IMG/VR virus record: IMGVR_UViG_3300033153_006853
Location: 1-36,652 of that record
Length of the DNA stretch: 36,652 nt
Source of the DNA: a virus
Strand: one strand, 5' to 3'
Both the position numbers and the translations under genes were made by a program. Shown here one piece after another: positions 7,572-35,940 of the stretch; position 1 is the stretch's first letter, and each line of letters opens with the position of its first letter. The notes beneath the pieces are model-generated. The model did no database searches, had not been told where the DNA came from, and saw only the letters and a list, made by a program, of their open reading frames with translations.

Positions 7572-7778
7572 TCACTTTCTCTTTTTGAATCTAATGCCGC
7601 CATCATCTGGGTACGCACTTGAATGATCGAATTCGCCAATCAGAATCTCACTCGGAATGCCATCGGGGAACGCCGCACATGTTATGCCGTTGGCGTAAAC
7701 ATGCACACATTTGTTGCATTTACCTTGGTCAATTGTAATATACGCTAAATTGCTGTCACAGAACCTGCTGCCAGTCAT
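7572..7778 (-). CDS. Small conserved CxxC protein
   Basis: 68 residues: CNKC near 21-24, a third Cys in GITCAAFPDGIPSEI, then GEFDHSSAYPDDGGIRF. I recognise the pattern G-I-x-C-x-A-F-P-x-G-I-P-x-E-I ... G-E-x-D-H ... Y-P-x-D-x-G-I as that of small proteins found beside phage minor head genes, function unknown. The cysteines suggest a zinc knuckle. The ATG overlaps the stop of the upstream two-domain gene as TGATG, so the two are translationally coupled. Confidence 0.7.
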   Translation of the reverse strand: MTGSRFCDSNLAYITIDQGKCNKCVHVYANGITCAAFPDGIPSEILIGEFDHSSAYPDDGGIRFKKRK

Positions 7779-9076
7779 CAGATTTCTTCTAAAATCATTT
7801 TTGCAATGGATATTTGCCTATCTTCAACTGTGCTAAATATCGTCTCGATGGCAACCGATTTTACCCGATACCGCGCGCCTTTCCGCAGCAATACTTCCAT
7901 CTGCTCGGCACCAACGTTAGGAAGGGCAACTCCGGTTTTGTTTACCCTGATTTCAAATAAAATGTTTTTAGTGAATTCCCCAACTTCCTGCGCTGTTGCG
8001 TATTCAACCGCTGTAGCATAATCAGCGCTCGCACTGGATATGGCATCCCATTCTAAAGTTTTTGACTTGATTAGCGCTTGATAGGTTTTATTATCTAAAC
8101 GGCTCAAGCCCCGCCACAAGGTACCTTTGTATGGCGACGAGCGGTCCAGCGCTCTATCCAAACGTGCTACTTCCGCTTTAACTTTTTTCATAGCGGCCTT
8201 AGGCCAACTTCTAAATCTAGCCGCTTTATCTCCAAAACGTTGATAATCCCTAATTACCCACGCCGACTGCGTGTATTCCCCCCCTATTTCCCAGCCGCCA
8301 TCCCAATGTGATATTGCTCTGCGCTCAGCAGTAGAAAGTGACTTAAACCATTTTTCGTCGTGGCTGTATTTTGGGGGAGGCTTATATACCTTAGCCTTCT
8401 TAATTGAAATGGGCTTAATCTTCTCAGCAATTGTAGTTTTTGGGACTTGCCCAGGAGTCATAATGATGGCGCGTTTCGTTTTAAGCTCCACTATATCGTT
8501 AACAACATCTGTAATCTTCAGTGTAATTTTCTTTTGCTGGAGCGGGGAAGCCGTGCTTAATTGCTTGAAAAGGTCGTCGCGCTTTCCCGACAGCTCTATC
8601 AACTTTTTATCAATTGTCGCACTGGGCGTGACTACTCCAACGCGCTTCGGAGGTTTTACTACTTTTTCCCCTCGAACCGCTCTCGCCAAGTCGTCAAACG
8701 AGTCTAATTCTTGCATTGTTTCAAGGCGGAATGAACCCAGCCCTTTTCTATAATACACGTGCTGGCCCTTGACAACGACCGTATGTGTCTGTGCTCTGTT
8801 CTTTTTTGCCCAGTTCAATTTCCGTGCTAGCGATTCCTTGTGCATCGTGATTTTATTATGTTTGCCGTCGATGATTGTTTTGACCTCAATCCCGTGCCGT
8901 CGCTTGTTTGCTGTTAATATAACGTCCATAGGATGATTATCACCCGTGCGCTTGCCTTTCAGGGCACGGGCGACAACCTCCTCACTCTGAGTTGCTATAC
9001 GCTCTTTCTCCTTACTCATAGGCACGTGAGAATCAAGCGCCCGCTTAGCTTTTATACTACAATAGCGCTTGGCCAT
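7778..9076 (-). CDS. Nuclease-like / ADP-ribosyltransferase two-domain protein
   Basis: 432 residues. N-terminal domain (about 25-125): Pro49-Met-Asp51 and Glu64-Val-Lys66 (HPMDV ... HGIEVKTI) give a PD-(D/E)xK-like arrangement, followed by MHKESLARKLNWAKK and GLGSFRL. Similar domains occur with MuF minor head proteins. A Lys-rich linker spans about 140-240. The C-terminal domain (about 240-432) has the three marks of the R-S-E class ADP-ribosyltransferases: Arg322 (LWRGLS), Ser347-Ser348 (ISSAS) and Gln392-Met-Glu394 followed by VLL (a QxE form of the ExE loop). ART domains are known on or beside MuF proteins, where they may be carried in the head and ejected. No signal peptide. Catalytic activity and target are inferred. 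Confidence 0.65.
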   Translation of the reverse strand: MAKRYCSIKAKRALDSHVPMSKEKERIATQSEEVVARALKGKRTGDNHPMDVILTANKRRHGIEVKTIIDGKHNKITMHKESLARKLNWAKKNRAQTHTVVVKGQHVYYRKGLGSFRLETMQELDSFDDLARAVRGEKVVKPPKRVGVVTPSATIDKKLIELSGKRDDLFKQLSTASPLQQKKITLKITDVVNDIVELKTKRAIIMTPGQVPKTTIAEKIKPISIKKAKVYKPPPKYSHDEKWFKSLSTAERRAISHWDGGWEIGGEYTQSAWVIRDYQRFGDKAARFRSWPKAAMKKVKAEVARLDRALDRSSPYKGTLWRGLSRLDNKTYQALIKSKTLEWDAISSASADYATAVEYATAQEVGEFTKNILFEIRVNKTGVALPNVGAEQMEVLLRKGARYRVKSVAIETIFSTVEDRQISIAKMILEEI

Positions 9077-15796: not shown

Positions 15797-16090
15797 TTAA
15801 CGTAAGTGAACTTCTGGAGCTTCTCGTATTCCGACAGCAATAGCATGTCTAGCATCAAATGCTATTACCGATTGAAGTGGTGTTTTCTCCTTCGTAAATC
15901 CCATTACCTCTGTTATTGTTCTCGACTCTATGCTGTCACCATCACGAAAAAGCATGGAGCGGCGAATCTCTGCCGCTCGCAGAGCAGCTATTCGTTTTGG
16001 TAAGTACACTTCTATTTGCACACCCCTACCGAGTGCAACCCACAGTTGCCACCATTCATTTGAGTCTGAGTCTGAGTCTGAGTCTGACAT
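15797..16090 (-). CDS. Hypothetical protein with Ser-Asp repeat N-terminus
   Basis: 97 residues, family not recognised. It begins MSDSDSDSDSNEWWQ, coded by a perfect 6-base tandem repeat, and continues with a compact portion (VQIEVYLPKRIAALRAAEIR, FTKEKTPLQSVIAFD, HAIAVGIREAP). The ATG starts one base after the TAA of the large terminase gene. The repeat makes the number of Ser-Asp units prone to change by slippage. Confidence 0.55.
   Translation of the reverse strand: MSDSDSDSDSNEWWQLWVALGRGVQIEVYLPKRIAALRAAEIRRSMLFRDGDSIESRTITEVMGFTKEKTPLQSVIAFDARHAIAVGIREAPEVHLR
16062..16085. repeat. GAGTCT hexamer, four tandem copies
   Basis: Four exact copies of GAGTCT on the plus strand (AGACTC on the coding strand), followed by a diverged GAC. 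The repeat encodes the Ser-Asp run at the N-terminus of the gene at 15797-16090. The unit is a multiple of three, so copy-number change would not break the frame. Confidence 0.9.
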
Positions 16091-18284: not shown

Positions 18285-18995
18285 TTATTTTTCATACCTG
18301 GAAGGCCGAAAAAGGCGTCTAACCGAAATCCCGAATATTTTCCGCACCCATCTATCAGCTCTTATCCATTTCCCGCCAGTTTTCAGCGCACCTACGAGTC
18401 CAACAATATGCTGCCCAGTCAATCTATTCACACTCCGGAGTATAACCTCATCGTCCCTTCCACCAAACTCAATAAACACCGCACCACCATCACTTCCTTC
18501 AGCAGCCTCTTCCATTGCCGTCAATATATCTATAAGCGTCCCCCTGTGCAAACACACAGAGCCCACCCTGGCCTTCTTCCGCGCTTCTTTCATAGCATCC
18601 TGCCACTTGAGAAACCCTCCCCTCACAGGTCTACCTTCCACACGCTGTATCTTTCTTTTCCCCACCGTCGTAAACTCTACACCCTCCGCGCTGCACTTCG
18701 TTATTTTACAATACCCACGCCCACCCCCAGCAGACCCTACGGCCCTCATATTCCTAACCGCTGTATCAACAACATCTAGTTCTACCGATACATCCATTCC
18801 TTCAACATTCTCATCCCCCGCCACCTCTGGAAACCTTACCCTCTCCGTGTCTACCGGCCCGACAGCCATAAGACACCGCCCGTTTGTCGCTACGCTCGAC
18901 CCATCATACGCAAAATGTACGCATGACCTAATCCGGTCCTTCGGATCCTTCGACGCCACTTTCCGAACTGTTAGGTTCCCTCTACTAAACAGCAT
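18285..18995 (-). CDS. Sliding-clamp-like protein, putative
   Basis: 236 residues. The segment RSCVHFAYDGSSVATNGRCLMAV (about 24-46) closely follows the beta-clamp pattern V-x-x-x-x-D-G-x-x-V-A-T-D-G-x-x-L. Two later beta-rich repeats (YCKITKCSAEGVEFTTVG; GGAVFIEFGGRDDEVILRSV) and the aromatic/basic end fit a DnaN-like clamp of reduced size. I choose ATG 18995 (AAGGAGG, 8 bases) over TTG 19001. Clamps tether DNA polymerase. T4 also uses its clamp to activate late transcription with a phage sigma factor, and here a sigma gene lies about 1 kb upstream. Clamp identity is moderate at best. Confidence 0.45.
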   Translation of the reverse strand: MLFSRGNLTVRKVASKDPKDRIRSCVHFAYDGSSVATNGRCLMAVGPVDTERVRFPEVAGDENVEGMDVSVELDVVDTAVRNMRAVGSAGGGRGYCKITKCSAEGVEFTTVGKRKIQRVEGRPVRGGFLKWQDAMKEARKKARVGSVCLHRGTLIDILTAMEEAAEGSDGGAVFIEFGGRDDEVILRSVNRLTGQHIVGLVGALKTGGKWIRADRWVRKIFGISVRRLFRPSRYEK

Positions 18996-18997
18996 CC

Positions 18998-19072
18998 TCA
19001 AAGCCTCCTTCCCGCGAGCAAGCCCGCCCTGAGTGTCTCATTCTCATAGTGTGACACTGCCTCGCGTTTCAC
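18998..19072 (-). CDS. Micro-gene (24 aa) between two coupled genes
   Basis: A GTG at 19072 overlaps the stop of the preceding gene as GTGA and has AGGAGG exactly 8 bases upstream. The frame reads MKREAVSHYENETLRAGLLA then GRRL and stops two bases before the next ATG. The product is too short for family recognition. The start signals are as good as those of any gene here. It could be a real peptide or a translational bridge keeping ribosomes moving to the clamp-like gene. Confidence 0.45.
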   Translation of the reverse strand: MKREAVSHYENETLRAGLLAGRRL

Positions 19073-19380
19073 CTTGAAAACCTCCTAAAGCTTGTTACCT
19101 TCTCCAGCTTCCACCCTTCCCTTCGCAGCTTTTTTATCCCTCTGCGCCACACTCCATCATCCACTCGCCACACACGTACAAGCCGCCAGCCGAGCCGATT
19201 CTCTCTGATCGCATTCTCAATATCAATCCCAAATACCTCTAATGTCTTGTTCACACCTTCACTAATCCGAAATGGGCATGCGACCATTAATTCCTTAATT
19301 CGCACATCATATCTAACCGCAAATACGAGGCGAGATCCACCGTCTCCCCAACTGCTCCGTACTATGTACTTTTTTCTCAT
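19069..19380 (-). CDS. Hypothetical basic protein (103 aa)
   Basis: Family not recognised. ATG 19380 is chosen because GGAGG lies 8 bases upstream; an ATG 15 bases earlier has no site. The product is basic and rich in Arg/Val/Trp (KKYIVRSSWGDGGSRLVFAV, IRENRLGWRLVRVWRVDDG, WRRGIKKLRREGWKLEKV). It is the first gene downstream of the repeat array, so its expression may be set by that region. Confidence 0.55.
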   Translation of the reverse strand: MRKKYIVRSSWGDGGSRLVFAVRYDVRIKELMVACPFRISEGVNKTLEVFGIDIENAIRENRLGWRLVRVWRVDDGVWRRGIKKLRREGWKLEKVTSFRRFSR

Positions 19381-19395
19381 TGGAAGTACCTCCAT

Positions 19396-19786
19396 CCCCC
19401 ATCTAAAACGCCCTCCTCCAGAGGGGAGGGTACCCTCTCTTCAAATTAACTAATTCCCTCCTTGCGCGTAAGAGCTGAAAGAAAACGCCCTCACTCATAG
19501 GGGCTCCCCTAAAATCCTCTCTCCCCATCTAAAACGCCCTCGCTCATAGAGGTGTAAAGAGGGGTCCCCCCCTCTACTCTATATGAGGGCGTTTTGTCTA
19601 AAATGCCCTCATGCATAGGGGTCCCCGCCTCCACAACTATAGTCACCACAAGCACTTACATGAATCTCCCCAACTACCGGAAAAACATCCAAAACGCCCT
19701 CATGTGGTTTCTCTCCGCCTCCCAGCTTCCCGACTTTCCCCAAAGTTAGTACTATAACTAATATTAGAAACCTAAAATCAATACCA
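19396..19786. promoter_or_regulatory. Gene-free control region, origin-like or operator-like
   Basis: About 390 bases without a convincing gene, the longest such stretch in the window. It holds six of the seven copies of an 11-base repeat, with the seventh just past its right edge. It also holds a large composite hairpin and an AT-rich segment (about 19742-19790) with the palindrome CTAATATTAG at 19758-19767. Iteron-like repeats around an AT-rich element recall a replication origin. Repeats in both orientations near a sigma gene also fit a binding array for a regulator. A possible minus-strand -10 (TATAGT, 19756..19751) has TTGATT 19 bases upstream, which is weak. Confidence 0.55.
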
Positions 19787-19802
19787 TTATCGAGGGCGTT
19801 TT
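19405..19802. repeat. Array of seven GAGGGCGTTTT repeats, mixed orientation
   Basis: Copies written as AAAACGCCCTC on the plus strand: 19405-19415, 19482-19492, 19531-19541, 19600-19610 (one change, AAAATGCCCTC) and 19691-19701. Inverted copies GAGGGCGTTTT: 19585-19595 and 19792-19802. A degenerate copy (AAAACGCTCCCC) is at 19907-19918 inside a gene. Copies at 19482, 19531, 19585 and 19600 share further flanking sequence, CTAT then 3-6 bases before GAGGGC. Start-to-start distances are 77, 49, 54, 15, 91 and 101 bases, so it is not a simple tandem array and not CRISPR. Confidence 0.85.
19531..19595. terminator. Large inverted-repeat hairpin, possible bidirectional terminator
   Basis: Two inverted copies of the array repeat form the outer stem: AAAACGCCCTC at 19531-19541 against GAGGGCGTTTT at 19585-19595. 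The stem extends imperfectly through CATAGAG against CTCTATA. The middle has a second perfect stem, AGAGGGG with CCCCTCT, around a 3-4 base loop. A GC-rich stem flanked by A4 and T4 is the form of a bidirectional intrinsic terminator, but the T-run is only four long. It could equally be a structured operator. Confidence 0.45.
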
Positions 19803-20080
19803 GACCACACATCCCACCAGCCCCAAAATATCACCCAACCGTCCGACCACCCCCAAAAATCCCATTTCCCATCACTCGCCACTCTGCCCACAAAAAGATA
19901 TTCCTCAAAACGCTCCCCGCCATCCCCGCCATCGCCGCCATCGCAGCCGCCGCCACCACCACCATGTACGAGCACGGGTTCACATCCAGGATTGAGCACC
20001 CGAACAATCAGACGTTTAGAGGTCATAATACGCCCACGCATACTCCCATTCACACACCGCCCCATGTACTTAATTTTCAC
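19787..20080 (-). CDS. Hypothetical Gly-rich protein (97 aa)
   Basis: Not recognised. GTG 20080 overlaps the stop of the sigma gene as GTGA. The product begins MKIKYMGRCVNGSMRGRIMT, has a Gly/Asp low-complexity stretch (GGGGGGCDGGDGGDGG) coded by 9-base GATGGCGG(C/G)-type repeats, and ends very Trp-rich (WDFWGWSDGW ... FWGWWDVW). The last codons lie beside the inverted array copy at 19792-19802, so the 3' end is also regulatory-like DNA. The odd composition makes the C-terminal half doubtful. Confidence 0.45.
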   Translation of the reverse strand: MKIKYMGRCVNGSMRGRIMTSKRLIVRVLNPGCEPVLVHGGGGGGCDGGDGGDGGERFEEYLFVGRVASDGKWDFWGWSDGWVIFWGWWDVWSKRPR

Positions 20081-20676
20081 CCTGACGCACCCCCACCTCG
20101 TATCTTGCTAATTGCCGACCCTTTTAGTCTCCGCACATCAGCTACACCAATCCCCATCTTCCGCGCTGCTCTAGCATCTCCAAACTTAACTGAATAATGC
20201 AGAGCATCCCACTCAACATCTAACAAATCTAGCCTTTTCCCTCGAGTCGACGCCTTCGCCTCCATCTCCGCACCCGCCCCCGACTCTGCCGCTTCTACCA
20301 CTTCCGCCAAAACAGCGCGGGCACGCTCACCGCTAACGCCAATCTTCGCCGCTTCAACATTCCAATTAACATCTTTTACATCAACCCCCAGCTCTGCTGC
20401 ACGCCCTCTCATTTTCTTCCAAACAGACCTCACCCCTCTCCGTAGAGTGTCACCTCTTCTAAGCTCGCTGAGCATTGCCGCCTCGATGATAATAGTGGCC
20501 CACGTAGAAAACCTAACGCCCTTCCCACCAGAAAATGTCCTGGCGGCCTCCACCAGACCCAAGTATCCCGCAGCTATAACATCATCTCTGTTGCTCAAAC
20601 CATGCCCAGCGCTCCGCAAAAGACGCTTCCCAACTGCCCCCACCAATCCTAAATGTTTTTCAATGCGAATGGTCAT
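20077..20676 (-). CDS. RNA polymerase sigma factor, sigma-70 family (phage-encoded)
   Basis: 199 residues. Region 2 is clear at about 6-75: HLGLVGAVGKRLLRS, NRDDVIAAGYLGLVEAARTF and GVRFSTWATIIIEAAMLSEL, matching the D-D-(L/V)-x-Q/A-x-G-x-x-G-L ... F-x-x-x-x-G-x-x-F-S-T-W-A core that binds polymerase and melts the -10. Residues about 85-125 could be a shortened region 3 (AAKIGVSGERARAVL). Residues 150-193 look like region 4 with a helix-turn-helix (DARAARKMGIGVADVRRLKG). It would redirect host RNA polymerase to phage promoters. It lies upstream of the repeat array and the head operon, suggesting control of middle or late genes. Promoter sequence unknown. Confidence 0.8.
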   Translation of the reverse strand: MTIRIEKHLGLVGAVGKRLLRSAGHGLSNRDDVIAAGYLGLVEAARTFSGGKGVRFSTWATIIIEAAMLSELRRGDTLRRGVRSVWKKMRGRAAELGVDVKDVNWNVEAAKIGVSGERARAVLAEVVEAAESGAGAEMEAKASTRGKRLDLLDVEWDALHYSVKFGDARAARKMGIGVADVRRLKGSAISKIRGGGASG

Positions 20677-20857
20677 TCTTTATCTGCCGCAAAGCTTCTT
20701 CCACCACCCCAGGATGCCTCACGTGACTCTCAACCTCCCGTCCTTCGGGTCCTATAAGCGTCACAACCTGAGCTCCCGCCAGAATTGGCCTCTTGCAAAA
20801 GAAGCACCGCCGTTCCGCACCTTTCCGAACTAAACTTCTCCAGTCAATGTCATTCAT
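20660..20857 (-). CDS. Small zinc-knuckle protein (65 aa)
   Basis: MNDIDWRSLVRKGAERRCFF contains the first Cys of a CxxC (RRCFFCKRPI). After GAQVVTLIGPEGREVESHVRH, the two His residues could complete a zinc site. No family known. GGAG at 7 bases precedes the ATG, and the ATG is 1 base past the preceding stop. Its end overlaps the sigma gene start by 17 bases, so the two are co-translated. A zinc-binding partner or regulator of the sigma factor is possible, with position as the only evidence. Confidence 0.6.
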   Translation of the reverse strand: MNDIDWRSLVRKGAERRCFFCKRPILAGAQVVTLIGPEGREVESHVRHPGVVEEALRQIKNDHSH

Positions 20858-21063
20858 TCTACTACTCCTATTTCATCAAACTCAACCACGCGTGCCTTTA
20901 TTCCCAATCGCCGTTTCATTCTATCTACGCTTCTCAACGCTTCGCCAGGATGTCTGTATATCTGGTGGCGAAATCCCACGAAGTTCTCATTGCTGCATCT
21001 ATGACACTCTGCGAACGGCGTCCCCACCCCATCTACCAAAAACTCGACTAGATATATCTTCAT
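20854..21063 (-). CDS. Hypothetical protein (69 aa)
   Basis: Begins MKIYLVEFLVDGVGTPFAEC, then CHRCSNENFVGFRHQIY, RHPGEALRSVDRMKRRLG and KARVVEFDEIGVVE. A C-x-x-C and several His residues suggest metal binding; the alternating hydrophobics suggest an alpha/beta fold. Not recognised. AAAGGCTT precedes the ATG. It is the last small gene between the methyltransferase and the sigma factor. Confidence 0.55.
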   Translation of the reverse strand: MKIYLVEFLVDGVGTPFAECHRCSNENFVGFRHQIYRHPGEALRSVDRMKRRLGIKARVVEFDEIGVVE

Positions 21064-28639: not shown

Positions 28640-28826
28640 GTGATAACTCCTTTGCTTTTTCAACAAACACCACAACTACGGCCCAAATCGTCAAGACAAA
28701 CAGAAGCACCGGCCATACTAACACAAATACTCTAAGCCATTCTGGCTCGATATCCTTCTCAAACGCCCTCCACACCGAAGGCATAGCTTCAACCCACATT
28801 ATCAACATTACTACAAACCAGAACAT
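28629..28826 (-). CDS. Small two-span membrane protein (65 aa)
   Basis: MFWFVVMLIMWVEAMPSVWR gives the first span, and WLRVFVLVWPVLLFVLTIWA the second, ending with VEKAKELSHGN. ATG 28826 has AAGGTG upstream. Not recognised. It lies upstream of the nucleotidase and endolysin genes, so a lysis role is conceivable, but no holin motif is evident. Confidence 0.55.
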   Translation of the reverse strand: MFWFVVMLIMWVEAMPSVWRAFEKDIEPEWLRVFVLVWPVLLFVLTIWAVVVVFVEKAKELSHGN

Positions 28827-29580: not shown

Positions 29581-31689
29581 TTACAACTTTTTCACACGTC
29601 GAGCGCGTCTAACACGGCCAATGTTATTGATCCAATGTGACTCGGACTTGTAAAGATGTAGATAGTCCATTAGACTCAGCACGCTTTCACTCAAATGCCA
29701 GCTACCTCTTCTCACGTCGGGCTGTTTTTTAATGACCCGCAACAGGTTAAGGTCCTGCAAAATGTGCCTTGTGGTGGCTTCCGGAAATCGAGTCCATTCC
29801 GATACCTCTTTCGCCGTTACATAATCATCACGCCCACGCAGATACATCTGTTTAACAACTTCTTCTACACGGTCTGGCGCAGTGTCGCACGCCACCTGAA
29901 CAATTGTTTCATACGTGCTCATACTAATCTCAGATTCCCATTTCCAAATACCAATCCCGAGTGCGAGTGTCGCAAACTGCTTAGCGAGACGTGTCCCAAT
30001 TTCGTGCATTGGCTTAAATGTAACTAGGCCAGTATATCTTTCACGGTCTACAACTCCACGAAGCCCTGCAATCCACTGAGCTAAGCGCCTAATCCGATCT
30101 CGCATTTCAATGGGAATTGTTGGCACGTTTTCGTCGGAAACAGGGCGGTCTAGAACAGCTTTTGCTGTTGCACGCAGACTCGTACGCATCTTGGATTCTT
30201 TTGTGATGTTCTCGAGTGCTTTATCAATTACCGCAGCACCGCCGCTTATCCGAGCCGCCTGTTTGATTCTATATTTGATAAAGCGTTCACCTAATACGCC
30301 GGAAACACCGGCCCACCTTTCAATAATTGGGGTGACTCCCGCCAGAACGCCAAAAGTGCTTTTGTAGCGTCTGACAATACCATTGCCGAAATCTCTAGAG
30401 GTTTCACCATCGTAGGCGTCGCGAAACTGGCCAAGAATTGTATCCCGGGATGTAACATCCATGCTAAGAATAGTTGTGAAGTCCTTGATGGCCAGCACCT
30501 TGCCGTCTAACTTTGGAATCAGAGACGGGTCGCCCCCACCAGCAAAGTTTGCTCCACTAATAAGCGTTTTTGGAGTTATGCTCGTTGTTATATATATCAG
30601 TGGGGCATCGTTTAAGCTCATTATTAATTCGCTTTTACTACCTCCTGGCGGTGCAACCAAGAAAATCCACAACGGGTCGGCTGATATTCTATTTGCGAAG
30701 ATAGAACCAAATAATACATCAAGTATTTCCGGGTTTGATATGTGCAGCCATTTTCTATACTGGCTTATAACAACATCTGGCGGTACACCCTCTCCAGTGG
30801 GGTTGGGAGGCGCGCTAACGCCTGCTGCGCCAGTGGCGGTGGGTGTTGTGCCATCTCCGATTAATTGTGGTGGCGTCTCGCGCAGCCGTTCATCAACAAA
30901 CTTCAAAGTTGTAGCTGGGTTCTTACCTGTCTGCAAATATAGGTCGCGAAAGTCAAACTTTTCAGGGTATCCTGGCGGCCAGTGTAGAAATCGTATTTGC
31001 TGGACCGCTCCTGCCAGCAAACGGTTAATGCGATGCGCTCCACGTATACCAGCCTCATCGTTGTCTGGTATGACGATTATGTCTCTTCCGTAGAACCCCT
31101 CAATGAGTTTGTTGGGGAAGTTACCCGCGCCAGGCGACGCGCATACATCGTCGTGGCGCTTCATTCGCCTGAGGCATTCCCAAATTGCCATGCCATCCCA
31201 CTCCCCCTCGGCCACCCAAATCACCCGTGTGCTCCGAAGTCTTTCTGGCACGAAGAAACTTAGATGGCTGCCTGATGTACTAAGTGTTCGTTTCTTTTTT
31301 AGTCCAGCAGATGGGATTATATAACGATGAATATCAGTAGTTATACCCTTCTCATTTCCTCTGGCGGGAATACTATAAAAGCTCCCACTCCAGCCCACCC
31401 CCCACGCCCTGAATGTTTGAGGCCGAAGCCCTCGATCCTCGGATAACACTGTTATGGGGCCCTCAATCAGACTCGCTGCGTACTTTCTAGATATAAGTGA
31501 AAGGAACATATCAAAGTTACCACTGCGGCCGCAGCGCTTGCAGTCCCATAACATTGATTCCACGTTCACCAAGAACTTGTTCGCCTTGCCGCAGAAAGGA
31601 CATATCCCCACAGCCTGCGTCTCTCCTGACGTGCCTGTGAATATAACACCGTGCTGGGCAAAACCCCGTAATCTCGGAGGGACATCCAT
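29581..31689 (-). CDS. DNA primase-helicase fusion
   Basis: 702 residues. An N-terminal zinc ribbon CPFC ... CKRC (Cys30, 33, 50, 53) is followed by a TOPRIM domain with VIWVAEGEWDGMAIWE (Glu161) and DIIVIPDNDEAG (Asp209, Asp211), as in DnaG/T7 gp4 primases. A Pro/Thr/Gly-rich linker spans about 275-305. The ATPase domain has FLVAPPGGSKSEL (about 343-355) as an atypical P-loop, then LAIKDFTTIL and FGVLAGVTPIIERW. The C-terminus has winged-helix features (DYVTAKEVSEWTRFPEATTR). ATG 31689 has GGGAGG just upstream. It likely primes and unwinds at the phage fork. Confidence 0.8.
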   Translation of the reverse strand: MDVPPRLRGFAQHGVIFTGTSGETQAVGICPFCGKANKFLVNVESMLWDCKRCGRSGNFDMFLSLISRKYAASLIEGPITVLSEDRGLRPQTFRAWGVGWSGSFYSIPARGNEKGITTDIHRYIIPSAGLKKKRTLSTSGSHLSFFVPERLRSTRVIWVAEGEWDGMAIWECLRRMKRHDDVCASPGAGNFPNKLIEGFYGRDIIVIPDNDEAGIRGAHRINRLLAGAVQQIRFLHWPPGYPEKFDFRDLYLQTGKNPATTLKFVDERLRETPPQLIGDGTTPTATGAAGVSAPPNPTGEGVPPDVVISQYRKWLHISNPEILDVLFGSIFANRISADPLWIFLVAPPGGSKSELIMSLNDAPLIYITTSITPKTLISGANFAGGGDPSLIPKLDGKVLAIKDFTTILSMDVTSRDTILGQFRDAYDGETSRDFGNGIVRRYKSTFGVLAGVTPIIERWAGVSGVLGERFIKYRIKQAARISGGAAVIDKALENITKESKMRTSLRATAKAVLDRPVSDENVPTIPIEMRDRIRRLAQWIAGLRGVVDRERYTGLVTFKPMHEIGTRLAKQFATLALGIGIWKWESEISMSTYETIVQVACDTAPDRVEEVVKQMYLRGRDDYVTAKEVSEWTRFPEATTRHILQDLNLLRVIKKQPDVRRGSWHLSESVLSLMDYLHLYKSESHWINNIGRVRRARRVKKL

Positions 31690-31734
31690 TGCGCCTCCCA
31701 TCACTTTTGGCTTGGCGGTTGTATGATAGTAACC

Positions 31735-33901: not shown

Positions 33902-34876
33902 TTACCGCCTTTTCCTCCTCACACTCTTAGATTTTACTGTTGAGCCCTTTTTGACCTTCTTCGACTTCGGCTTTTCAAGTCCGCCAATGCCCTCGAGAAG
34001 TTCAATTTCCTCGGGAGCAAGCTGTTCACGCTGCCACTCATACTCTTTAATCTTGGCGATGACGGAATCTCTGGTATCGTCCTCATCCACTTCGATGTCT
34101 TGCGCTTGAGCGAATGCAAGAAGCGCATCCTCGTCGTCGTAGGACTCTTCAGCCTCTTCAGCCTCTTCAGCCTCTTCAGCCTCTTCGGCCGAGACCTGCG
34201 AGAGCTCCTCGAAGCCGACTTCCCAGAGCACCCCTTCGCCGTCCTCGATTCTAGCATCGGTGCCCTTTATCGACTGTATAACACCTGTTATGGTGTTCTC
34301 ATCCTCGTCCTCAAAGGACACTTCATCGCCGACCGCAAACAGCGCATCAGCAGCCGTCGAAGCTTTCTTCGCCTTTGACTTCGACTTCACTTCTGCTTTT
34401 GATTTGCGGGACTTGGCAGCAGTTGGCGGAGGCTCACTAGCATCTTCAGCATCTTCGTCCGCCGGAGGTGCGCCCTCATCTAGCAGTTGCAGCACGCGGA
34501 CATTGACGAATCCGCCCTTGCTTTCCTTTGCTGCACCAGTGTAAATAGGTGCGTCATGCGCAATTGCCGCCACAACCTCCTCGATATCCTCCGGGTTCTC
34601 TGGGACCTCGTAACCCATCTTCTCAATCCACTGCGCCACAAATCGAGGTCCTTGTGCCGTTTCAAGCTGGAGATAGTCGTGAATGACTTCTCCCTGTGAC
34701 TCTCCCTCCAAAATTAAATGCTCGCGGTGGATCTGCAAGTTGCCGCTGCTCTGCGACTCCACCACAGCAGCACCTTGAAGCTGAAATGTGAATGTGCCCG
34801 TGGGTGCAGGCGGTGCATCTTTGCCCATTCTCCACGTTTCACGCATTGCCTTTAATCTGTTTGTGAACTCTCCCAT
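33902..34876 (-). CDS. DUF669-type ssDNA-binding protein with low-complexity extension
   Basis: 324 residues. The first ~115 residues match DUF669: GTFTFQLQGAAVVESQSSGN, QIHREHLILEGESQGEVIHD and RFVAQWIEKMGYEVPENPED. Two parts follow that DUF669 proteins usually lack: a Lys/Ser linker (KSRKSKAEVKSKSKAKK) with a Tudor/KOW-like unit (FAVGDEVSFEDEDENTITGV), and a Glu/Ala run (SAEEAEEAEEAEEAEES) with a short acidic helix and basic end. The family sits in phage recombination modules and is thought to bind ssDNA. AGGAG precedes the ATG. It would act with the neighbouring Sak4-like ATPase and polymerase. Confidence 0.75.
   Translation of the reverse strand: MGEFTNRLKAMRETWRMGKDAPPAPTGTFTFQLQGAAVVESQSSGNLQIHREHLILEGESQGEVIHDYLQLETAQGPRFVAQWIEKMGYEVPENPEDIEEVVAAIAHDAPIYTGAAKESKGGFVNVRVLQLLDEGAPPADEDAEDASEPPPTAAKSRKSKAEVKSKSKAKKASTAADALFAVGDEVSFEDEDENTITGVIQSIKGTDARIEDGEGVLWEVGFEELSQVSAEEAEEAEEAEEAEESYDDEDALLAFAQAQDIEVDEDDTRDSVIAKIKEYEWQREQLAPEEIELLEGIGGLEKPKSKKVKKGSTVKSKSVRRKRR
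34145..34189. repeat. Five tandem 9-base repeats (CTCTTCAGC)
   Basis: Units at 34145-34153, 34154-34162, 34163-34171, 34172-34180 and 34181-34189. The last differs by one base (CTCTTCGGC). Read on the minus strand they encode the (Glu)-Ala-Glu-Glu run of the ssDNA-binding protein. Near-identical units indicate recent expansion by slippage, and the frame is kept. Confidence 0.9.
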
Positions 34877-34962: not shown

Positions 34963-35940
34963 TTAACTTTCTTTATTTTTGAGCTTCGTCACTTTCTTCA
35001 GCCCTCCTCTAATTGCACCTAACTTGCTTTGCGCCAGCGAGAGTTTTGTAGCTTTCGCTGTGCTTCTAGCAGTTGAAAGTTGCCGAGGGTCTATGCCAAC
35101 ATTCTCACCCTGGAATGCAGCGCGAACAATCTCGTACGGAGTCTTACCACCATCTTCTGGGTTGGGAAACGGTAAATACCGTGGCATTTTTCCTCGATGT
35201 TTTGCCAGAATCACGTCATCACCTTCAGTAATCATAACTCGAATGAGTTGGTTCTTGTTGTCCCGCATGTATTCCACGTAAAACATAAAATCTGTAATCG
35301 CCTGCACAACGCCAAGCGCTTGTCCGCTCATTGAGGGGAGTACTATATCAAATGAGTCTGCGCCAGGATTCTCTACTTCCCGCATTTTGTAGTGGCTCGT
35401 CATAATGACGCCATAACCTGCCTGCCTGATTCTGTAAATCTGAGTTATGAATTCCTTCTTAAGCTCGGTCCAGCCGCGCCCAGACCTATCACGCTTGCCT
35501 GTGGAATCCTGACTAACATGGTCTATGCCCAACCGCCTGCAAACATAATGTGCACACAGGTCGTACGCCCTATCTACCGTGTCAATTGCAACGTACGTGA
35601 AAGGACGCTCCCCTTGCGCCCCAACAAGTAGTTCAATAGCGCGCCGGAAGATTTCCCAACTTGTGACGCCTCCTGCATCGCTGTTAAACTCTGCAACGTC
35701 TAAATGCTTCAGGCCTGGTTCCGTTCCGAGAAACACAGTATTTGGGAATGAAGCAGCTGCGCTGCTTTTTCCAATGCCCGTTGCTCCATAAAAAAGGATC
35801 ATGTAATTAACCAGCTCACTGTCTACTCCCTTTGTTTTCGTTGGCAGTGTGAGATTAGCAACCTTCGAGTCGACTGCAAGACGCGTTCTTCTTTTGAGAG
35901 CAGTCCTTTGAGCTTTACCCTCTCTTCTTTTTACCGGCAT
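34963..35940 (-). CDS. RecA-like recombinase ATPase, Sak4 type
   Basis: 325 residues. Walker A GATGIGKS at 52-59 and Walker B FTYVAIDTVD with Asp120; then GVIMTSHYKMREVENPG and SFDIVLPSMSGQALGVVQAI, consistent with phage AAA_24/Sak4 single-domain RecA-like proteins. The N- and C-termini are Lys/Arg-rich. It would promote strand annealing or exchange with the adjacent ssDNA-binding protein and nuclease. I chose ATG 35940 (GGAG at 7 bases). ATG 35946, which overlaps the upstream stop as ATGA, is possible too. Confidence 0.8.
   Translation of the reverse strand: MPVKRREGKAQRTALKRRTRLAVDSKVANLTLPTKTKGVDSELVNYMILFYGATGIGKSSAAASFPNTVFLGTEPGLKHLDVAEFNSDAGGVTSWEIFRRAIELLVGAQGERPFTYVAIDTVDRAYDLCAHYVCRRLGIDHVSQDSTGKRDRSGRGWTELKKEFITQIYRIRQAGYGVIMTSHYKMREVENPGADSFDIVLPSMSGQALGVVQAITDFMFYVEYMRDNKNQLIRVMITEGDDVILAKHRGKMPRYLPFPNPEDGGKTPYEIVRAAFQGENVGIDPRQLSTARSTAKATKLSLAQSKLGAIRGGLKKVTKLKNKES

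Follow-up and report, generated by a model that had tools for sequence, protein, structure and literature searches.

The ori/crr system of satellite phage P4 comprises two iteron regions and the alpha protein, a primase-helicase fusion with a C-terminal DNA-binding domain. The stoperators of mycobacteriophage L5 are short asymmetric repeats that are located outside genes, scattered over the genome, and bound by the lysogenic repressor. Bacillus phage SPP1 possesses two origins approximately 13 kb apart, each composed of repeats and an AT-rich DNA unwinding element (PMC6316719), and the Rep protein of SaPIs recognizes iterons by its C-terminal domain, the related SCCmec helicase Cch2 binding a putative origin likewise (PMC7581432).

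The locus compared here with these systems belongs to an incomplete IMG/VR virus contig, the window, by which we mean the whole analyzed stretch of 36,652 bases. Nearly all of its genes are on the minus strand, and the record lacks both end repeats and tail genes and hence is a fragment. Re-analysis of the sequence confirmed the array described in an earlier note on this DNA: seven copies of GAGGGCGTTTT, six exact and one with a single change, are present at 19405-19802 in both orientations, and the longest intergenic gap inside the record is indeed found here (19381-19786, 406 bp; the runner-up is 316 bp). The minus-strand copies are copy 1 (19405-19415), copy 2 (19482-19492), copy 3 (19531-19541), copy 5 (19600-19610; the one-change copy, GAGGGCATTTT), and copy 6 (19691-19701), and the plus-strand copies are copy 4 (19585-19595) and copy 7 (19792-19802). 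Viewed along the coding strand, the array has the following layout: (i) copies 7 and 6 form an inverted pair, on either side of an AT-rich stretch that contains a CTAATATTAG palindrome (approximately 19758-19768, also reported previously), (ii) copies 5 and 4, likewise inverted relative to each other, are only 4 bp apart, and (iii) copies 3, 2, and 1 follow in one orientation. The final codons of a putative 97-aa ORF (ORF97, 19787-20080, minus strand; an open frame alone, coupled to the sigma factor gene) overlap copy 7, and copy 1 doubles as the 3' arm of a hairpin that resembles a terminator. The CTAT flank ascribed to four copies was found again at 19482, 19531, 19585, and 19600. An addition to the earlier description is a set of G/C palindromic boxes, read from the sequence, that precede several copies: GAGGGTACCCTC beside copy 1 (19426-19437), GGGGCTCCCC beside copy 2 (19500-19509), and GGGGTCCCC both between copies 3 and 4 (19561-19569) and beside copy 5 (19618-19626).

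The array is thus a cluster of several copies of one short site in a noncoding region. The occurrence of six exact 11-mer copies within 398 bases is far above that in shuffled sequence: when the window was dinucleotide-shuffled 200 times, no 11-mer reached more than four copies within 400 bp, the maximum being two in 198 of the shuffles, and 2000 shuffles of the array region itself gave at most four copies of any one 11-mer. As claimed before, this fragment contig holds no further exact copy of GAGGGCGTTTT, and the sole one-mismatch match outside the cluster is GAGGGCGTTTG at 28760. DNA stability was computed by the nearest-neighbor approach in 50-bp windows, and the least stable 50 bp of the entire record are at 19742-19791, ending exactly at copy 7. 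This AT-rich core with CTAATATTAG, easily melted according to its predicted stability and adjacent to the sites, is a candidate DNA unwinding element; at the 80-100 bp scale, other places in the window are weaker.

The array is located between a sigma factor gene, with the small ORF behind it, and the ORF108 gene. The upstream gene (20077-20676, minus strand), previously annotated as a phage sigma factor from the sequence, encodes a sigma-70 region 2 protein (PF04542, 7e-12). The ORF108 family gene directly downstream of the array (19069-19380, minus strand) has a likely start at 19380 preceded by GGAGG. The ORF108 proteins of the window and its relatives diverge strongly, whereas their C-terminal tail, close to SFRRLMR, is conserved and may serve as a binding peptide, possibly one for the adjoining clamp. 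ORF238 (18285-18995, minus strand) is, as judged from profiles and a predicted structure, a sliding clamp, i.e., a DNA polymerase processivity factor with the PCNA fold: PHROG 947 was matched in 9 of 13 family members, and the AlphaFold model (pLDDT 84) matches PCNA in Foldseek at 1e-4.

Other replication genes in the window encode a family-A polymerase and a primase (29581-31704, minus strand), in which profiles and a structural model indicate a zinc ribbon and a TOPRIM domain fused to an AAA helicase. Residues 289-617 of the model align to MCM chains with Z-scores of 17.5-19.6 (rmsd of approximately 4 over some 285 residues), a predicted likeness that concerns the fold. The C-terminus (residues 597-674) has weak profile matches to ArsR-like regulators, and HTH families were matched in a few members of the primase-helicase family; a winged helix is thus predicted near the C-terminus, at about residues 597-674. 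By domain logic, the primase/MCM-like helicase is a plausible candidate initiator. Elsewhere in the window, the C-terminus of a head-module protein (7778-9076) weakly resembles ADP-ribosyltransferase exoenzymes (PF03496; the E-value of 0.018 does not reach the cut-off), an in-frame 9-base tandem repeat is located in the gene beside a Sak4-like protein (34145-34185), and an in-frame 6-base tandem repeat codes for Ser-Asp (16061-16082).

No close relative of the window was found in the phage collection. When viral contigs were scanned for exact matches to CTATGnnnGAGGGCGTTTT, five single ones were obtained, each in a contig without a second copy, and a scan of viral contigs for the inverted pair of sites gave no match. 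The window sigma protein and clamp found no relatives as single queries; the window primase had no match among plasmid and phage records, and the primase alignment had none among genome contigs. A search with the DNA polymerase yielded two contigs at approximately 45% identity, L095 being one of them, that have the primase, clamp, and ORF108 in common with the window. A three-row primase alignment used as a profile retrieved 57 viral loci with a related primase, in which homologs of ORF108 and the clamp were recovered by profile. Thirty related contigs, several of them incomplete, were examined whole for elements. All relatives are metagenomic contigs without hosts, their gene calls are mechanical open frames, and the choice of their elements by inverted-repeat score was made with the pattern already known. 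Relatives by the large terminase were set aside for the analysis of the element, as they share structural genes with the window and almost none of the early module. In one such group (L043, L044, L046, L047, L050, L052, L071, and L084), arrays of TTACTTGGTG or CGTCCAAGTAAA were observed, which in L043, L044, L046, and L071 have 36-54 nt arms separated by AT-rich gaps; in L046 and L044, the arrays are located between the genes for an XRE-like regulator and the terminase.

A comparable noncoding element was found in 18 of the 30 contigs; the other 12, several of which are incomplete, have no clear element. The typical element contains lineage-specific sites, mostly inverted across an AT-rich core of 60-200 bp, and the site copies are largely confined to these elements. 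The sites are ATGGGGATTTT in mixed orientation in L095, where the element is just upstream of the ORF108 homolog and downstream of a sigma gene, and tandem AAACGCAATAY on both sides of the core in L114; the arms upstream of ORF108 are CAAAACGCCATGG...CCATGGCGTTTTG in L100 and CAAAATGCCC...GGGCATTTTG in L103, and other relatives have unrelated sequences. Some elements have near-perfect arms of 27-33 nt, and several repeat whole sites in tandem or mixed orientation. In L103, L114, and L111, the element before ORF108 is accompanied by a second one that has the same site sequence and a different location, which in L103 and L114 is between the lysis and early genes.

The arm scores of the elements are mostly 16-29, compared with 10-15 for the dinucleotide shuffles listed; the highest scores are 29 in the loci and 33 genome-wide. 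The latter belongs to L108 and was excluded, since the inverted repeat (oriented 35736-35896) is not an element: its arms are two divergent consensus sigma-70 promoters (TTGACA-17-TATACT) that share a downstream operator-like sequence. The repeat of L107 was left out as a possible terminator (a gap of 30, then a T run). The weakest accepted elements are those of L095 and the window, which rest on repeated sites more than on arm length, and that of L133, whose score equals the shuffle maximum. Of 12 other genomes, 5 have the motif AAAAYGCC in their element versus 0.37 expected (P 5e-5), a partly circular count because Y was admitted after L103 had been seen. G-runs followed by TATA (GGGGTATATA, GGGGACCCCTAT) were observed at the inner arm edge next to the AT core in several relatives (e.g., L100, L108, L125, L127, and L128) as a second shared sub-motif.

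The element usually precedes ORF108 and the PCNA-fold clamp. Relatives with the same gene order and no repeats, proposed in the earlier note as a finding against the array, are mostly not what we observed: among the 14 ORF108-bearing contigs, nine have an element upstream of ORF108, three have it elsewhere, and two (L096 and L107) have no clear element. The strongest inverted repeat of the contig is within 1 kb of the ORF108 start in 8 of these 14 contigs versus 0.48 expected.

We consider the array to be probably an iteron-type replication origin with an AT-rich unwinding region (probability of about 0.55). Among the three models offered in the earlier note, this one fits best, the relatives having sites of their own around the weakest DNA of the genome. 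Several observations are counted in its favor: (i) the sites are clustered and inverted beyond chance, (ii) in 13 of 18 genomes (window included), the least stable 50 bp of the contig fall within the element, and in 16 of 18 one of the three least stable 50-bp windows does so, (iii) the site differs between lineages, yet the paired elements of three genomes agree in their site, as would be anticipated for a single binder acting in trans, (iv) the replication genes are self-contained, with an MCM-like helicase-primase, a predicted winged helix, and the PCNA-fold clamp beside the element, (v) comparable elements were found in 18 of 30 contigs, with arm scores mostly above those of the shuffles, and share AAAAYGCC in the partly circular count given above, and (vi) SPP1 and the SaPI and SCCmec helicases provide precedents. 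The origin is favored because the sites flank the putative unwinding region, as would be anticipated for the loading of two helicase rings that point away from one another.

In the mechanism that we infer, the initiator, most likely the primase/MCM-like helicase acting through its C-terminal winged helix, would bind the GAGGGCGTTTT sites that flank the AT-rich core at 19742-19791, and its binding would melt the core. Two helicase rings would then assemble on the melted core, facing outward, the fused TOPRIM primase would start synthesis, and the family-A polymerase together with the clamp encoded just downstream would extend the primed DNA. Replication would thus start at the array. Counted against an origin are the 12 contigs of 30 without an element, the weaker places at the 80-100 bp scale in the window, and the strand composition: the GC skew switch proposed for the array was not seen, as neither the window nor the relatives have a sign change at the element, except for L102, where the gene direction changes too. 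Such a switch could be masked because nearly all genes are on one strand.

A second reading, possible and clearly less probable than an origin, is a promoter/operator region, where a phage regulator would bind the sites and control ORF108, the clamp, and the terminase-led late genes, as well as the early genes in phages with a second element. It keeps this standing because the elements sit at module junctions: they are located at operon starts, upstream of ORF108, clamp, and terminase genes or between lysis and early genes, and in L102 the element is beside terminase genes that run in the opposite direction. Paired elements tend to early/late and late/early junctions, a tendency that fits promoters too and is counted against an origin. 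Compositional bias also bears on this reading. The genes at 18285-21063 have a third-position GC skew of 0.27-0.64, compared with mostly <0.3 elsewhere in the window, and in 9 of 11 genomes the 2 kb immediately downstream of the element that precedes ORF108 show an elevated GC skew at fourfold sites, whereas no such peak was found at the second elements, which speaks against promoters. The skew marks the element as the start of something directional, and transcription and replication both fit. The strand asymmetry around the array is strong and local (GC skew of approximately 0.4-0.5 on the coding strand at 18285-21063, third codon positions included). Also contrary to a promoter/operator region, the cores score no higher for sigma-70 promoters than shuffled sequence does (P <0.05 for 2 of 32 core strands; the matrices are of the E. 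coli type and may not be those of the host), and no HTH_3 repressor or integrase (PF00589) was found in the 16 genomes searched, most of which are contig fragments. Furthermore, one promoter among many would less typically be the weakest spot of a whole genome than would an unwinding element.

As to the sigma factor, to which the earlier note had linked the sites as a third model, region 2 (PF04542) was detected in 4 of 16 genomes, 13 of which have elements (the contigs are incomplete, and some sigma genes were perhaps missed), yet in all four the gene is near the element, adjoining it in the window, L100, and L101 and approximately 1 kb away in L095. This proximity favors a promoter/operator region; control by sigma alone is not supported as a general explanation, as elements occur without a detectable sigma gene.

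It is improbable, although conceivable, that an origin is tied to transcription from the same spot. The MCM-like primase-helicase would open the core between inverted sites, and sigma, ORF108, and the PCNA-like clamp would couple late transcription to replication, resembling the specificity factor, co-activator, and clamp of T4 late transcription (PMC7892883). This arrangement is consistent with the gene order of the window, L100, and (interrupted by further genes) L095, namely sigma - element - ORF108 - clamp, and with the small size of ORF108 and its conserved C-terminal tail; most element-bearing genomes, however, have no detectable sigma factor, and the analogy to T4 is one of gene order only. 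If true, such a switch would be an independent counterpart of T4 gp55/gp33/gp45.

An RNA element, in which the inverted arms would pair into a long stem within the ORF108 mRNA leader, is quite unlikely: the long arms of some relatives and the somewhat better folding of the minus-strand RNA than of shuffles (z -2.1, a weak score in the window) would agree with it, whereas Rfam gave no match, and neither a stem nor a hairpin alone would need whole sites repeated in tandem or mixed orientation, a point that also counts for an origin. L5-type stoperators, the remaining model of the earlier note, are not supported as a general explanation, as all exact window copies are in one cluster and the sites of relatives are, largely likewise, in one or two clusters and in both orientations, and not dispersed; the search of 16 genomes, mostly fragments, for an HTH_3 repressor and an integrase, which found neither, points the same way. 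Very improbable, too, is a packaging site (pac/cos) bound by the small terminase, as three genomes have two elements, the second being at the lysis/early junction in L103 and L114, and a meltable AT-rich core is no hallmark of packaging, even though the window element precedes the presumed gene for the small terminase by approximately 1.2 kb and the L112 and L102 elements are near terminase genes.

The origins of most uncultured phages are unrecognized, as similarity searches cannot keep pace with the rapid change of the sites. A layout of inverted sites that surround the least stable DNA of a genome, in combination with the neighboring gene pair, may point to a probable origin across phages with primases approximately 28-52% identical to that of the window. 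If confirmed, the array would provide the origin of a phage group that combines a PCNA-fold clamp with a fusion of TOPRIM primase and MCM-like helicase, and initiator/site pairs would become readable from sequence, making their joint change testable.

Comparison with the known systems revealed partial likenesses. The window sites and the L5 stoperators are both short asymmetric sites outside genes, the window sites being confined to the element. The P4 alpha protein and the window primase-helicase have a like predicted domain plan and a different helicase class, and the presence of two iteron regions is a further likeness in layout. Similarly to the gp38-bound oriL and oriR of SPP1, the elements have repeats beside an AT-rich unwinding region, with up to two such regions per genome, and the genes are on one strand with one such region in a long intergenic gap; SPP1, in contrast, uses direct repeats and a separate origin-binding protein, loader, and DnaB-type helicase (PMC6316719), whereas in the window group the sites usually flank the core in inverted orientation, and the predicted protein is a primase/MCM-like fusion. 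With SaPI Rep/ori and SCCmec Cch2, the window system would share a self-loading helicase, a C-terminal DNA-binding domain, and short iterons in a noncoding stretch. The SaPI and SCCmec origins, however, are directly downstream of the helicase gene, and the helicase is of the DUF927 or D5 type (PMC7581432), whereas the window element is approximately 10 kb from the primase-helicase gene, and the helicase part of its product matches MCM by predicted fold.
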